Shown one piece after another: positions 15,137-21,694 of a stretch of DNA of 22,774 bases. The stretch lies in IMG/VR virus record IMGVR_UViG_3300030117_001130, positions 7,006-29,779 of that record. The stretch is one strand, 5' to 3'. The DNA comes from a virus. A model generated the notes under the pieces. That model saw only the letters and a list, made by a program, of their open reading frames with translations. It did not search any database and was not told the DNA's origin. The first letter of the stretch is position 1, and each line of letters starts with the position of its first letter. The position numbers and the translations under genes were made by a program.

Positions 15137-15145
15137 AACATTCTC

Positions 15146-15292
15146 CTACTCGTCTGTGAAAGTTACAATCAGTTGCCATTGAAAGTCTAGGATATCACCA
15201 TATCCCATGTCAATCAAGTCGTCGCGTATTGCATCTACAATAGCGTCTGCTGTTTGCTTGTCCATTGTTTCAGTCATGTCAAGTTCCATCAT
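15146..15292 (-). CDS. 48-residue acidic small protein
   Basis: A short frame (ATG 15292, TAG 15146-15148) begins MMELDMTETMDKQTADAI and is rich in Asp (about one residue in five). AGGAG lies 7 bases before the start, and the ATG overlaps the stop of the preceding 41-residue gene (ATGATG/TGA). Acidic, Met-rich tiny proteins like this can be DNA mimics or protein inhibitors; nothing in the sequence decides. Ribosome site and overlap make it likely to be real. Confidence 0.6.
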   Translation of the reverse strand: MMELDMTETMDKQTADAIVDAIRDDLIDMGYGDILDFQWQLIVTFTDE

Positions 15293-15414
15293 GGATATCT
15301 CCTGTTCATATGATGTGCCACTGCCTGTTGTTCTGGCTCGTCATCGAACCAATAGTCAAGCAGGGTGTACTTGGTACGCTTGGCAATATACCGGCGCACC
15401 TCTACCTCAGTCAT
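15289..15414 (-). CDS. 41-residue small protein
   Basis: A short frame (ATG 15414, TGA 15289-15291) begins MTEVEVRRYIAKRTKYTLL and has an aromatic acidic middle (DYWFDDEPEQ). Its start lies within the end of the 56-residue gene, and its stop overlaps the start of the 48-residue gene, so all three appear translationally coupled. It has no good ribosome site of its own. Function unknown. Confidence 0.5.
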   Translation of the reverse strand: MTEVEVRRYIAKRTKYTLLDYWFDDEPEQQAVAHHMNRRYP

Positions 15415-15577
15415 CCGTTTTTTGTTTGTCCGCTTGGTACGAAACTTGTTCTCGTTTACTCGCATCTCTGTCTCGCTTTCTGTTGTACTTGGTTTTGTCT
15501 TGTACTACTTGGGCGCGGCGTCGGTTCTGCATCATTGCCTTTGCCACAGGGTTTATTCTAGTGATACGGCTATTCAT
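15407..15577 (-). CDS. 56-residue very basic small protein
   Basis: The protein begins MNSRITRINPVAKAMMQNRR, continues with a KYNRKRDRDASKRE stretch, and has about one Lys/Arg in four residues, suggesting RNA or DNA binding. I chose ATG 15577 rather than the longer frame from 15742 because AAGGGG lies 6-8 bases upstream and the upstream extension crosses a strong hairpin (15612-15652). I recognise the MNSR..RINP..KA..QN pattern from small phage proteins of unknown role. First gene after a 288-base gap. Confidence 0.68.
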   Translation of the reverse strand: MNSRITRINPVAKAMMQNRRRAQVVQDKTKYNRKRDRDASKREQVSYQADKQKTDD

Positions 15578-15583
15578 TGTCAA
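15555..15583 (-). promoter_or_regulatory. Possible promoter overlapping the 56-residue gene start
   Basis: Leftward TTGACA (15578-15583), 17-base spacer, TAGAAT (15555-15560). The -35 lies just before the ATG and the -10 inside the gene, so it could only serve the 41- and 48-residue genes and beyond. The fit is good but the position is unusual. Confidence 0.4.
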
Positions 15584-15611
15584 CCCCTTCCATACTAGAA
15601 ACGATAAGCGC

Positions 15612-15652
15612 GGGGCGGGGAAGTCGCTCTTCCAGCAACAACCACCCGCCCC
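15612..15652 (-). ncRNA. Long GC-rich hairpin in a leader region
   Basis: An 8-bp perfect stem (GGGGCGGG 15612-15619 with CCCGCCCC 15645-15652) encloses a second stem (15623-15627 with 15635-15639) and a 7-base loop. The inner stem has a G-U pair only when read leftward (C-A on the other strand), favouring a leftward RNA. No T-run follows, so it is not a standard terminator. The gap 15578-15865 otherwise holds only a doubtful 20-codon frame (15735-15797). Confidence 0.5.
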
Positions 15653-15865
15653 ACTAACAGTGTGCTTTTGTTCTTCTTCAGACCTACTAACACACCGATC
15701 CGGTGAGCAGTTTTGCCACATGCTCAGGTGGTCTTTAGTCATTGTTACGCGGTGACATTACCGCTTGCCAGTTTTCTCGTGAAGGCGCACTGACCATTAC
15801 CTACCTGCGTCTTAATTTTATAGTCGTTACAGGCTTGACCGCGTTTATACTCGCTCGACTATAGC

Positions 15866-18169: not shown

Positions 18170-18207
18170 TTGCAATTCTCCATTTGCGGTTGGTTGGTGT
18201 GGAAGTG

Positions 18208-18236
18208 ACATTACTTCCCCAAACGAAACCTGTCAA
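18208..18236 (-). promoter_or_regulatory. Leftward early promoter
   Basis: TTGACA (18231-18236), 17-base spacer, TAATGT (18208-18213), ahead of the first leftward gene; predicted transcript start is about 30 bases before its ribosome site. Confidence 0.8.
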
Positions 18237-18240
18237 GGTG

Positions 18241-18325
18241 TACCGGCGACAATTCTTAACTGCCTCATGGTTTTGTCTTCACGAAGAAGAGCGTCGGCCA
18301 TGCGACTAGCGAACCGTCGCCGGTA
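18241..18325 (-). ncRNA. Branched RNA fold closed by a 10-bp stem
   Basis: TACCGGCGAC (18241-18250) pairs perfectly with GTCGCCGGTA (18316-18325). Inside are two further hairpins: TCTTC/GAAGA (18276-18280, 18283-18287) and GTCG/CGAC (18293-18296, 18303-18306). A leftward promoter candidate at 18345-18373 would put this fold at the start of its transcript, ahead of the first early gene. It is a candidate small RNA or leader; the rightward strand cannot be excluded. Confidence 0.5.
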
Positions 18326-18344
18326 TGTTTTCGACTTCACATTT

Positions 18345-18373
18345 TACTTAGCTATACAGCGACAATTAGTCAA
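18345..18373 (-). promoter_or_regulatory. Possible leftward promoter upstream of the branched fold
   Basis: TTGACT (18368-18373), 17-base spacer, TAAGTA (18345-18350). The spacer contains one copy of the GCGACAATT repeat, a possible binding site for a regulator. Confidence 0.45.
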
Positions 18374-18697
18374 TCCCCTAGTGGATTAGCAGATTGCACG
18401 TTTTCAAATGTGCGGCCTGTCTATTGTTGGACCTACCCTTTTATTGGTTCGGAATGCGGAACCCGTCAGGCACGGTCCCCGCATTTACGTTTCTTTCCGC
18501 CCGTGTTTTACCTCACCCGCTAGTCCTACCTCGCCCCTGCCAATGTTACACTAGGTCGCACTGGTGGCCGTCGAGACGGTTCTCTAGCATAGAGCCGTTC
18601 GTATCTACCGTCTGCGGGATTGACCGCTGGCAGGTTCGGTATTGTCAAGAGGTCCGCACCTCGCAGGTTTTTAGGTTGCCTCGTCAACCGCCCCTTC

Positions 18698-18726
18698 ACA
18701 CTAGGGCATCGCGTCGGGCCTGTCAA
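18698..18726 (-). promoter_or_regulatory. Possible leftward promoter in structured region
   Basis: TTGACA (18721-18726), exactly 17 bases, TAGTGT (18698-18703). Confidence 0.45.
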
Positions 18727-18778
18727 GCCCCGCCAGTTTCGCGGGTTTAACCGCCCAGCACTGGCGCTGGTATCGTGC

Positions 18779-18816
18779 GTCAGGGGTTGTCTGCCGTGGC
18801 AGCGCGTCGTCCTGAC
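18779..18816. repeat. Structured repeat copy A
   Basis: Outer stem GTCAGG/CCTGAC (18779-18784, 18811-18816), internal loop GGTTGT opposite CGCGTCGT, inner stem CTGCC/GGCAG (18791-18795, 18798-18802). Copy B at 18892-18931 keeps the loops and inner stem but changes the outer stem in a paired way. Confidence 0.75.
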
Positions 18817-18862
18817 TGTCGAGGATATGTGGTTATCGGACTTGTCCGCCTCGACCTTCATC

Positions 18863-18891
18863 ACCCTAGCGACTTGCGCCGGGGCTGTCAA
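18863..18891 (-). promoter_or_regulatory. Possible leftward promoter in structured region
   Basis: TTGACA (18886-18891), exactly 17 bases, TAGGGT (18863-18868). It lies directly beside repeat copy B; a leftward transcript would start just before the GTCGAGG/CCTCGAC hairpin and then run through copy A. Confidence 0.42.
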
Positions 18892-18931
18892 GCCGGGGGT
18901 TGTCTGCCTGTTGGCAGTGCGTCGTCCCGGC
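18892..18931. repeat. Structured repeat copy B
   Basis: Outer stem GCCGGG/CCCGGC (18892-18897, 18926-18931), internal loop GGTTGT opposite TGCGTCGT, inner stem CTGCC/GGCAG (18904-18908, 18913-18917). Compared with copy A, outer-stem pairs 2 (T-A to C-G) and 4 (A-T to G-C) change on both sides while the loops are conserved. Confidence 0.75.
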
Positions 18932-19022
18932 GACAATTGAAAGATGGCAGCATCGGGGTTGAATGTCAACACCCCTAGTCAAGCTGTTGATTTTATTGAG
19001 GTTTTTTCAGGGTGATAAATCT

Positions 19023-19037
19023 GTTCCTGTTTTGTTC
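19023..19037. promoter_or_regulatory. LexA box 1 (alphaproteobacterial type)
   Basis: GTTC at 19023-19026 and 19034-19037, exactly seven bases apart: the GTTC-N7-GTTC operator recognised by LexA in Alphaproteobacteria. The N7 ends in GTTTT, as in box 2 when read on the other strand. Confidence 0.75.
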
Positions 19038-19080
19038 CTAGTTCGGTCATGGTTTGTTCCGGTATGGTAGCAGGGTAGGA

Positions 19081-19095
19081 GAACAAAACGAGAAC
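19081..19095. promoter_or_regulatory. LexA box 2, inverted relative to box 1
   Basis: GAAC at 19081-19084 and 19092-19095, seven bases apart. On the opposite strand it differs from box 1 at only two of 15 positions. A TATAAT lies 11 bases downstream at 19107-19112, so box 2 would cover the -35 zone of a rightward promoter. Confidence 0.75.
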
Positions 19096-19124
19096 GATAG
19101 ATCATATATAATAAGGTAGGGGAT

Positions 19125-19181
19125 ATGCACCGCCAGAAGATACCGGGTATCATTTTGAAATTGTTGTCTTTTTCACGGTAG
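19125..19181 (+). CDS. Doubtful 18-residue hydrophobic peptide
   Basis: A short frame, MHRQKIPGIILKLLSFSR, begins 13 bases after the TATAAT that follows LexA box 2 and has AAGG 8 bases before its ATG. Its basic ends and hydrophobic middle resemble small SOS-induced membrane toxins in general character only. So short a frame could be chance. Confidence 0.2.
   Translation: MHRQKIPGIILKLLSFSR
19139..19151. repeat. Short palindrome
   Basis: GATACC-G-GGTATC, a 6-bp perfect inverted repeat with a single central base, in the control region just after LexA box 2. Possible operator. The remaining sequence from 19182 to 19390 holds a further 7-bp inverted repeat (CCCGCCG 19289-19295, CGGCGGG 19332-19338) and nothing I can identify as a gene. 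Confidence 0.35.
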
Positions 19182-19393
19182 CTGGTGGCGTCAAATGATA
19201 GTCAGTCACTAGACTTTGCTTTGATTGTTGCGTCAAGCCATTGTTATCATTAAAGAATCAGGCGATACGCCAGCAATACTGCCCCAATCCCGCCGCCTCG
19301 CCCCCGCATTGCGCGACAATTCAAAGGTGTACGGCGGGTGCCACCCCCCCGTTAGTAGTATATATGTATGTAGAAGCACACAGATTAGGAAAA

Positions 19394-19619
19394 TTAAGTG
19401 TTAACCACAGAAACAACTGAAAACATTTATGCACAAAGGATGTGCAATGTGCTTAATTTTTAGGCAATGATAAATTAAATCGCGGGAATCTACACTTTAG
19501 GTATTGACACGGTATCTAGATTGTGATATAATTATATAAACTAAACGAACAGACACTTTAAGTGATCACTTAAATGTTATTTATTAAAATATAAATACAC
19601 TTAAATGTACAATTAAGTG
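19394..19619. promoter_or_regulatory. Operator-like array of TTAAGTG sites
   Basis: TTAAGTG or its complement occurs at 19394-19400, 19558-19564, 19567-19573, 19598-19604 and 19613-19619. The second and third form a perfect 18-bp palindrome, TTTAAGTGATCACTTAAA (19557-19574). The last two form an inverted pair with an 8-base gap. The near match CACTTTA occurs at 19494 and 19554. The array surrounds the rightward promoter, as operators of a repressor or replication initiator would. Confidence 0.65.
19504..19532 (+). promoter_or_regulatory. Perfect consensus rightward promoter
   Basis: TTGACA (19504-19509), 17-base spacer, TATAAT (19527-19532): exact sigma70 consensus in both boxes and spacing. 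Predicted start is near 19539, about 18 bases before the 18-bp palindrome, so a bound repressor could block it. It drives the rightward arm. Confidence 0.9.
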
Positions 19620-19634
19620 AGATGGACTGTCACC

Positions 19635-19736
19635 ATGAAGTATCTAATGTATGTTCTTGTAGCTATCATATGTGCGTATGTTGCGTACATTATGGGTGTG
19701 GCACTCGTACATACAGTTTGTGATTGTTTAAAATAA
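19635..19736 (+). CDS. 33-residue single-span membrane peptide
   Basis: A short frame (ATG 19635, TAA 19734-19736) begins MKYLMYVLVAIICAYVAYI and is nearly all membrane span, with two Cys near the end (CDCLK). The ribosome site is weak (GAGATGG 9-15 bases upstream). It is the first possible gene after the rightward promoter. A hydrophobic frame of this kind is unlikely but not impossible by chance in AT-rich DNA. Confidence 0.45.
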   Translation: MKYLMYVLVAIICAYVAYIMGVALVHTVCDCLK

Positions 19737-19755: not shown

Positions 19756-19965
19756 ATGGCTAAAAAATCTGTAAAACTATACACAGACAATGTGCTTGAT
19801 GCATTCTATAATGCTATCCGTACTAACTCACTAGACAAACTTCATATCCCCCACAGTGATGTATTCTACGTGCGTCAGGCTGTAGAAGCGCATTATGGTA
19901 GACCCTTTACCCTAAAGCATGTGGAAGATGCAATGAGGGCTGAAGGATGGTCGGAGGATAAGTGA
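19756..19965 (+). CDS. Small phage protein, unknown function
   Basis: The 69-residue protein starts MAKKSVKLYTDNVLDAFY and ends with a TLKHVEDAMRAEGW helix. The helix-strand-helix pattern could be a small winged-helix or adaptor domain but no family is clear. I prefer ATG 19756 over the TTG at 19750. The ribosome site is weak. It is followed directly by the next ATG, showing the genes are co-translated. Confidence 0.65.
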   Translation: MAKKSVKLYTDNVLDAFYNAIRTNSLDKLHIPHSDVFYVRQAVEAHYGRPFTLKHVEDAMRAEGWSEDK

Positions 19966-20178: not shown

Positions 20179-20477
20179 GCGTGAAGTATCGTGGCATTAC
20201 ATTTCCCGGTTACAACCGGCCCATTGCTTCTAACCGTGAAGGTAAGAAGAAAATGGTGCTGGCTAAAAAGGGTGACAAAGTAAAACTAATTCATTTCGGT
20301 GCAAAAGGGTACGGACACAACTATAGTGCAGCCGCCCGTAAATCATTTAGAGCCAGACACAAGTGTGACACCGCCACTGATATCCTGTCTGCTCGTTATT
20401 GGGCATGTCGCACCTTGTGGGGTGGGGCAGGTAAACCTAAACAGTCCAGCCCCAAATCTAGAAAAGGAAAGTACTGA
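20175..20477 (+). CDS. Basic conserved phage protein
   Basis: The 100-residue basic protein has the core MVLAKKGDKVKLIHFGAK (27-44), GYGHNY, then SFRARHKC (57-64) and SARYWACRTLW (72-82), and a Lys-rich tail. The combination F-G-x-K-G-Y, R-x-R-H-K-C and YWAC occurs in a family of small phage and large DNA virus proteins whose role is unknown. Cys/His spacing could bind a metal. The start overlaps the preceding stop, and its stop overlaps the next start by one base. Confidence 0.72.
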   Translation: MSVKYRGITFPGYNRPIASNREGKKKMVLAKKGDKVKLIHFGAKGYGHNYSAAARKSFRARHKCDTATDILSARYWACRTLWGGAGKPKQSSPKSRKGKY

Positions 20478-21694
20478 TGGCTGCAAAAAAGTTTAAATTT
20501 AAAAACCCCAACACTGGGATAGTTGAAGAACGCCCTGATACTCCGTATTTCCGTAATCTAGCAAAAAAGATGCAGGAAAAATACAACAAGCTATCAGATA
20601 AAGAGAAGGCTGCTATTAAGGCTCGTATACAAAAACGACAAGCAAGGCAGGCTGACACGGATAAGAAAAAACAAGAAGTCAAAGAAGGTAGGGCTGCTGG
20701 ACTTACCATGACAGAGATTCGTGCAAAGCGCATGAACATATCTGCTGATGAGTTAAAGAAAAGACAAATTGCTACTCTGCTTGGTATGGCAGAGGGCATG
20801 TCTTTGTTTATTCCCGGTGGTGTAGCAATCAAAGCAGGACAGCTTGCATTCCGTGGTAAAAAAGGCGCGGATGCAGTTAAAGCCATTAAGAATATAGTTA
20901 AGGGTAAGCAACCTGCATCTAAGACAGCACCGAAAGCAGCACCCAAGCCAGCAGCTAAAAAGGCTGCACCTAAAGCAGCACCAAAGCCAGCAGCTAAACC
21001 TACAAAGGAAGGTGCAGCATCAAAGCGTATGCCAAAAGCAGCGGCTCCCAAAGCTGCACCTAAAGCGGCAGCTAAAAAGGCAGCACCAAAGGCTGCAGCT
21101 AAGAAAGCTCCACCTAAGACAGCGACTAAACCCCAAACAAAAACGCAGGCTAAAACGGCTGCTAAAAAGGCTGCACCTAAGACAGCGGCAAAGCCTAAAT
21201 CTAAAAGGCGTCAGCTTATTGAAAAGGTAGGTCCGTTGGTTGCGGCTGGTACTATTCTTGGCGGCGGTGTTGCTGTTCAAAAACTAATAGACGGTAAAGC
21301 AAAAGCGGGTACTCCACCTCTAGGTGGTCCTAGTGATGGTCGCAAAAAGGGACCACCTAAAGGTCGTCCACCTTTGGGTGGGCCTAGTGATGGTCGCAAG
21401 AAGGGACCGTCTAAAGGTCGTCCTCCGTTGGGTGGTCCTAGCGATGGTCGCAAAAAGGGACCGTCTAAAGGTCGTCCACCTTTGGGTGGGCCTAGCGATG
21501 GTCGTAAGAAAAGAACTAACATTACTGCTGGTCCAAATACAGGCTTTGGTCCGAAGGGTAACATCTTCCCGAAGAACGCGGAAGATCGCGCACGGCTAAT
21601 GAAGCTGTATGGTGGCACTGGTAGTGCTGCTGCTAAAGCTGCTGCGGCTGGTACACAAGGCGCACTCAAGAGGGGAAAAAATAATGGCAGCTAA
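20477..21694 (+). CDS. Histone-H1-like Lys/Ala/Pro-rich protein with 18-residue repeats
   Basis: This 405-residue, extremely basic protein has a helical Lys/Arg-rich N-terminus (1-95), a hydrophobic segment (about 100-118) and a long Ala/Lys/Pro tract (144-244) with PKAA/AAKK motifs like the tails of histone H1 or AlgP. A second hydrophobic segment follows (251-268), then four tandem repeats of PPLGGPSDGRKKGPSKGR (280-327 and on), and an Ala-rich end. Such tails bind DNA by charge, so DNA condensation or packaging is plausible but inferred. Two hydrophobic segments are unusual for a free DNA-binding protein and suggest membrane or capsid contact. Confidence 0.75.
   Translation: MAAKKFKFKNPNTGIVEERPDTPYFRNLAKKMQEKYNKLSDKEKAAIKARIQKRQARQADTDKKKQEVKEGRAAGLTMTEIRAKRMNISADELKKRQIATLLGMAEGMSLFIPGGVAIKAGQLAFRGKKGADAVKAIKNIVKGKQPASKTAPKAAPKPAAKKAAPKAAPKPAAKPTKEGAASKRMPKAAAPKAAPKAAAKKAAPKAAAKKAPPKTATKPQTKTQAKTAAKKAAPKTAAKPKSKRRQLIEKVGPLVAAGTILGGGVAVQKLIDGKAKAGTPPLGGPSDGRKKGPPKGRPPLGGPSDGRKKGPSKGRPPLGGPSDGRKKGPSKGRPPLGGPSDGRKKRTNITAGPNTGFGPKGNIFPKNAEDRARLMKLYGGTGSAAAKAAAAGTQGALKRGKNNGS
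21314..21511 (+). repeat. Four tandem 54-base repeats inside the H1-like gene
   Basis: Units begin at 21314, 21368, 21422 and 21476 (the last is cut to 36 bases). Each encodes PPLGGPSDGRKKGPSKGR or a one-residue variant. Most base differences between units are silent (for example cta, ttg and ttg for Leu), so the peptide is conserved while DNA drifts. Confidence 0.9.

Follow-up and report, generated by a model that had tools for sequence, protein, structure and literature searches.

A new family of conserved minus-strand structured RNA in HMO-2011-type marine phages

The stretch of viral DNA analyzed here (the window: 22,774 nt, bases 7006–29779 of a 34,858-base IMG/VR virus record) carries on its minus strand a conserved structured RNA, which lies at a fixed place in related phages, encodes no protein and matches no catalogued Rfam family. 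Over its full length, the DNA polymerase of the window shares 76% identity with that of Puniceispirillum phage HMO-2011, and those of Roseobacter phages CRP-345 and CRP-1 are next closest; the window comes from an uncultured marine phage of the HMO-2011 type. According to the abstract of PMC9038755, this group is dominant in the sea and widely distributed there. Leftward-running genes reach up to 18211 and rightward genes begin at ~19636, and between these divergent operons lie ~1.4 kb of non-coding DNA (18212–19640) with a GC-rich block inside. An earlier note had proposed part of this DNA (18395–18960, no strand given) as a large structured phage RNA. That finding is real, but shifted in position and on the other strand: the element reaches left to ~18236, and the proposed interval misses most of its best-conserved part, the 3′ domain at 18240–18403. 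The best explanation, which we regard as likely on balance, is a leftward structured non-coding RNA that forms its own unit, acts early and in trans, and takes the slot held elsewhere by a protein resembling gp74 of HMO-2011.

Covarying structure on the minus strand

Relatives were collected with a small conserved protein encoded across the gap (19756–19965) as query, which gave 80 IMG/VR loci (L numbers). The block of the window is present in L054 and L073 at ~83–88% nucleotide identity; together these three are the close trio. A more distant version (second group) occupies the same place in L011, L013, L047, L055, L065, L069, L078 and L081, and was also found through DNA patterns in L087, L095–L097, L100, L105–L108, L110 and L112. 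The block had been described as non-coding, and this is borne out: no reading frame is open throughout the window, L054 and L073, and a conserved protein frame across the block, looked for in three relatives, was not found.

Consensus folds of 15 second-group members differ between the strands. The minus-strand fold has 50 pairs, 18 with double changes (–47.7 kcal/mol), versus 34 pairs, 15 with double changes (–30.4 kcal/mol), for the plus strand; it also contains 84 G-U cells versus 3 A-C cells. Plus-strand RNA was rejected on the strength of this weaker consensus fold and the G-U/A-C counts. In a 174-nt 3′ domain, aligned across 15 relatives without fitting to structure, 99.7% of 583 cells are paired and double changes occur in 12 of 39 pairs (57 such cells). 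None of 500 shuffles reaches the observed pairing and double-change values, and slid versions of the structure are 28–38% paired. Further pair types in this domain were not above chance (21 versus 23.4 in shuffles). In a larger alignment of 22 distinct rows, this one fitted to the model, 98.3% of cells are paired, and the number of pairs with double changes is 20 of 39 (93 cells). In the end hairpin of relatives, CCGGCGAC/GTCGCCGG is swapped for GGGGTGAC/GTCACCCC. Pairing is 100% for a 5′ hairpin with a loop-to-tail pseudoknot in 12 relatives, which amount to 7 distinct rows, and 6 of 9 pairs have double changes; support for the pseudoknot itself is one pair switching between G-C and C-G.

Closer to the window, hairpin arms change together within the trio (AUGCGG/CCGCAU to AUGAUG/CAUCAU; GCGG/CCGC to GGUG/CACC), and these read as RNA-type changes. 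A joint alignment of seven cores (window, L054, L073, L065, L069, L078 and L097), which has many gaps, contains 53 pairs, 22 of them with double changes. The earlier note had also pointed to two mutually exclusive pairings of ACGG at 18576–18579, with CCGT at 18568–18571 or at 18595–18598. All three motifs are where it placed them. The pairing with 18595–18598 is invariant across the close trio and stands; the alternative partner is not kept, being replaced by TTTT in L054 and TGT in L073.

These patterns also bear on whether the conserved element is DNA, namely an origin of replication, a packaging site or an array of operators, with repeats and palindromes that merely resemble stems. Its divergent intergenic position, the location of the cumulative GC skew minimum in this gap, four copies of GCGACAATT, a GTTC-type inverted repeat at 19023–19095 and a symmetric palindrome at the leftward operon promoter would all suit such an element. 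But symmetry predicts neither the excess of G-U over A-C (84 versus 3), nor nested multi-helix covariation, nor a pseudoknot, and we consider this explanation improbable.

Membership of the window was assessed with a covariance model of the 3′ domain, R1, trained on 15 relatives that include neither the window nor L054 nor L073, and run on 75 sources (586 kb; E-values are rough owing to short calibration). Of 20 matches, 15 are training rows, and L087 is nearly identical to L096. The independent matches are L067 (46 bits), the window (43.1 bits), L054 (38 bits) and L073 (32 bits). On the window, R1 matches 18240–18403 on the minus strand with an E-value of 5.6e-8 in 586 kb; with filters off (1641 bases) the score is 43.2 bits (E 1.5e-10). 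In a set of 24 sources 23 match, and the other, L102, ends inside the RNA. Covariation in relatives and this match on the window thus uphold a large structured phage RNA, and by sequence criteria the window belongs to a new HMO-2011-type RNA family.

The middle of the RNA is variable between members. A mid-module model, R2 (GGGCGUAA...AGACUAGUUUUGU...), had no match in the slot of the window, L054 or L073. R2 was discarded as a means of widening the family: it was confident only in L095 and L072, whose modules had already been seen, and other matches had E-values of 0.05 or worse. Isolate phages searched with the L078 slot, plasmids, and bacterial genomes searched with one exact pattern gave no match to the RNA, and the window gap as query matched HMO-2011 only in the promoter zone.

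Candidate promoters and the transcription unit

The element appears to be framed by two promoters. Among 23 family members, 22 (the exception being L067) have TTGAC[ACT]-N17/18-TANNNT 484–609 nt upstream of the RNA 3′ end, and the same 22 have an operon promoter with TAATGT starting 2–9 nt after that end. In the window, the corresponding sites lie at –487 and +3 relative to the RNA end. Over 14 related, not independent, regions there are 37 leftward and 5 rightward instances of the strict form of the promoter, versus ~3.1 expected from shuffles. This arrangement looks like a separate transcription unit of ~450–570 nt across the family; in the window it would span ~18690–18240, and additional repeated modules extend to ~18970.

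The same region could instead provide the leftward early operon with a long, structured 5′ leader that has tandem promoters and acts in cis through antitermination like HK022 put, attenuation or mRNA protection. The operon follows the RNA directly, on the same strand and with no terminator between them, and several leftward promoter-like sites fall inside the element. Yet an operon promoter placed 2–9 nt after the RNA makes operon mRNA possible without the RNA, ~450 nt far exceeds put sites (~65 nt), and relatives that lack the RNA retain the operon, with a protein in the RNA's place. We therefore judge a leader unlikely. Because P7, the operon promoter, begins 3 nt after the RNA end, the RNA is better taken as its own unit.

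The number of promoter-like sites raises another possibility, an array of several small RNAs transcribed separately from individual promoters, instead of one core RNA. Sites at 18969, 18891, 18726 and 18236, a weaker one near 18373 seen by eye, and the repeated M1 modules are what such an array would produce. Most relatives, though, have one promoter and then ~450–570 nt of covarying structure without a further strict site, which makes an array very improbable.

Covering the –10 box of P7 is a palindrome whose letters change among relatives while its symmetry stays (GGAAGT/ACTTCC, GGGTGT/ACACCC, GGATG/CATCC); it is probably an operator with phage-specific repressor specificity. A role for this palindrome as an RNA hairpin was rejected, as it is also present in L010, L076 and L085, which had no R1 match.

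The gp74-like slot and a proposed role

In HMO-2011, CRP-345 and CRP-1, a gp74-like protein is encoded near the start of the leftward operon. Searches with tblastn (15 queries, L010 left out) found it in 25 loci versus none of 40 RNA-type entries, which include contigs under two ids and are only partial contigs. A gp74-like profile found nothing in the window's own record; in 10 RNA-type contigs it gave only 13–22 bit matches (6 of 10), due to the unrelated L010 row in its alignment. HMO-2011 gp74 and three relatives had no match in Pfam or PHROGs. The slot protein is ~190–210 aa long and mostly helical by prediction (AlphaFold pLDDT 77, pTM 0.54, from an alignment that included the unrelated L010 row), and a fold search of the PDB with the predicted structure found nothing at E<=0.001. 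One place is thus taken by either the RNA or the protein, an alternation that may reflect functional replacement or just different phage clades.

Other contents of the slot were also seen. Long, apparently non-coding stretches fill it in L012, L017, L018/L020/L022/L024/L029, L019, L030 and L033, and also in L042, L053, L071, L075 and L082, with no R1 or R2 match at low E-value where searched; these are possibly other, unrelated RNAs. By eye, the slots of L046, L079 and L076 have a short structured-looking leader and a lysine/arginine-rich open reading frame of ~70 aa replacing the RNA.

Our proposal for the structured RNA is as follows. Host RNA polymerase would start early at P3 (18726–18698), and the product would be a ~450-nt core RNA ending at the hairpin 18325–18241. 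Two repeated upstream modules, each behind a promoter-like site (P1, P2), could add up to ~280 nt, and P7 would drive the protein operon. Acting in trans, the RNA may form a large folded scaffold and bind a factor of the host or the phage, in host takeover or counter-defence. It would occupy the position that the gp74-like protein has in other HMO-2011-type phages, and may also take over its task. A fixed anchor carrying interchangeable recognition parts would fit the combination of a constant 3′ domain with variable 5′ modules. More tentatively, the family might represent a new class: a large modular early phage RNA that replaces an early protein at a fixed slot and does its job in trans, with exchangeable 5′ modules changing its target. 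We hold this broader idea to be possible at best.

Several observations weigh against the proposal. Folding energy is near chance: the fold of 18381–18990 has a z-score of –1.34 on the minus strand and –0.59 on the plus strand versus dinucleotide shuffles (2 and 5 of 20 shuffles equally good, respectively), and 150-nt tiles across the block range from –3.0 to +0.7. Thermodynamic stability was accordingly dropped as evidence. Nor do the nine perfect short stems once offered as an RNA signal help, as any GC-rich half-kilobase gives as many; stem density alone is no proof of RNA, so the evidence must come from relatives. Among these, the close trio has 13 pairs with double changes on the minus strand and 13 on the plus strand and therefore leaves the strand unsettled by itself, and for the half of the RNA inside 18395–18960 the evidence comes chiefly from three close relatives. 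For the training rows and L087, a match to R1 is built in. The –10 boxes of P2, P3 and P7 are weak, with 3 of 6 letters matching, and a general consensus scan, which reports 6 sites versus 2.6 +/- 1.6 expected, lists none of the three. A promoter/terminator scan of the window found no terminator after the end hairpin, so readthrough into the operon may occur. The mutual exclusion of RNA and protein possibly reflects one phage clade and partial contigs. A trans-acting function is, finally, a guess.

The composition figures reported earlier are correct (63.3% G+C at 18721–18780, 18.3% at 19561–19620); the second interval is the rightward operon's AT-rich promoter zone. Over 18395–18960, G+C is 59.0% versus 47.0% for the whole window. 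Features of the RNA and its surroundings are collected in Table 1. The copies of GCGACAATT at 18246, 18359, 18930 and 19313 share one strand; in an alternative fold, the 18930 copy could pair with the end hairpin's 5′ arm. The GTTC/GAAC inverted repeat at 19023–19095, alignable in L046, L079, L072 and L078, is likely a regulator binding array. A conserved element with GTTAACCACAGAAACAACTGA precedes the rightward promoter (19358–19467); it can be aligned in HMO-2011 and in most of the 80 loci. Farther away, an open frame at 20477–21694 (405 aa) has histone-H1-like KAAPK repeats and four PPLGGPSDGRKKGP-type repeats. The intergenic segment 15765–15862 is 99% identical in L089 and 85–89% identical in L065, L069 and L100, exceeding its flanks; it lies within 15137–15865, a possible second RNA that can be aligned across relatives and has a partly open frame.

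Table 1. Positions of the structured RNA, its parts and adjacent elements in the window
Feature	Position	Strand	Basis or remark
Core structured RNA, ~450 nt	18240–18690	–	5′ end placed from P3 –10, 3′ end at end hairpin/R1 match; homologous cores aligned
Conserved 3′ domain	18240–18403	–	R1 match
End hairpin TACCGGCGAC...GTCGCCGGTA, inner GCUAG...CAGUUA	18241–18325	–	Arms form an inverted repeat
Hairpin AUGCGGG...CCGCAU	18454–18484	–	AUGAUG/CAUCAU in L054, L073; two double changes, no broken pair
Hairpin pairing ACGG 18576–18579 with CCGT 18595–18598	18576–18598	–	Invariant in window, L054, L073
Hairpin GCGG/CCGC	18614–18627	–	GGUG/CACC in L054; two double changes
Hairpin GAGGU/ACCUC	18649–18662	–	Relatives' letters differ yet pair; three double changes
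Core 5′ hairpin GGUUG-ACGAGG-CAACC	18674–18689	–	Window structure; relatives have a hairpin with covarying loop-to-tail pairing here
P3, candidate core promoter TTGACA-N17-TAGTGT	18698–18726	–	Equivalent in 22/23 members; below consensus-scan threshold
Module M1 copy 2, stem around GACGACGC / CUGCC..GGCAG / ACAACC	18779–18816	–	Direct repeat D5/D2; similar motif in L078 by eye
P2, candidate promoter TTGACA-N17-TAGGGT	18863–18891	–	Also in L054, L073
Module M1 copy 1	18892–18931	–	Direct repeat
P1, weak candidate promoter TTGACA-N17-CATCTT	18941–18969	–	TAGCTT in L054, L073; window copy by eye
P7, putative leftward operon promoter TTGACA-N17-TAATGT	18208–18236	–	3 nt past RNA 3′ end
Palindrome GGAAGT-AATGTC-ACTTCC, probable operator	18201–18218	.	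Outside RNA; covers P7 –10; symmetry kept
Putative rightward operon promoter TTGACA-N17-TATAAT	19504–19532	+	12/12 matches in consensus scan
First protein gene of leftward operon, 133 aa	17810–18211	–	No Pfam or PHROG match

Comparison with known RNAs

To our knowledge, few large structured phage RNAs are known. The new family adds one to the HMO-2011-type group, with a defined strand and slot and with candidate promoter and ends. A search of the literature, outside which lay subscription journals and supplements, found no report of this RNA; an entry in an automatic candidate-RNA catalogue is possible. In the passages found in the HMO-2011-type genome paper PMC9038755, no RNA of this kind is mentioned. 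No family in Rfam 15 matched the window at gathering score, and permissive searches of short stretches returned only unrelated chance matches far below gathering scores, plus tRNAs elsewhere in relatives.

The earlier note had likened the block to GOLLD and ROOL and suggested an Rfam search for both. Neither was listed up to an E-value of 5 on the window and relatives (up to 0.5 in one relatives search). The candidate is phage-borne and large, and its conserved 3′ and variable 5′ regions are as described for GOLLD in PMC12286853; given the failure to match at gathering score or up to E 5, descent from GOLLD, ROOL or another catalogued large RNA as a divergent member is barely credible. Membership in GOLLD or ROOL is rejected. 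What survives of the comparison is general style: size, a conserved 3′ domain and variable 5′ modules. Some GOLLD members, like the new RNA, are marine. The new RNA differs from GOLLD in lacking any sequence or covariance-model match, in its core size (~450–570 nt versus >800 nt for many GOLLD) and in its early-operon slot. GOLLD and ROOL often, not always in the case of GOLLD, lie near tRNA islands, and their functions are still unknown (PMC12286853). A tRNA/tmRNA search of the window found none; single tRNAs lie ~1.3–2.1 kb from the RNA in L054, L078 and L013. ROOL resembles the new RNA as a phage or prophage RNA of ~600 nt with a complex fold and pseudoknots (PMC12286853), and is set apart by the absence of an Rfam match for the new RNA and of an adjoining tRNA island in the window.

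Position in the genome offers two further parallels. The put RNAs of phage HK022 are structured, ~65 nt long and located just downstream of early phage promoters. The new RNA is much larger, and its operon appears to have its own promoter after the RNA. The gp74-like protein, at ~190–210 aa, has no homology to the RNA but shares its slot as the first unit of the leftward operon. With a protein in this slot in relatives, cultured isolates among them, the function of a large phage RNA becomes a concrete experimental question.
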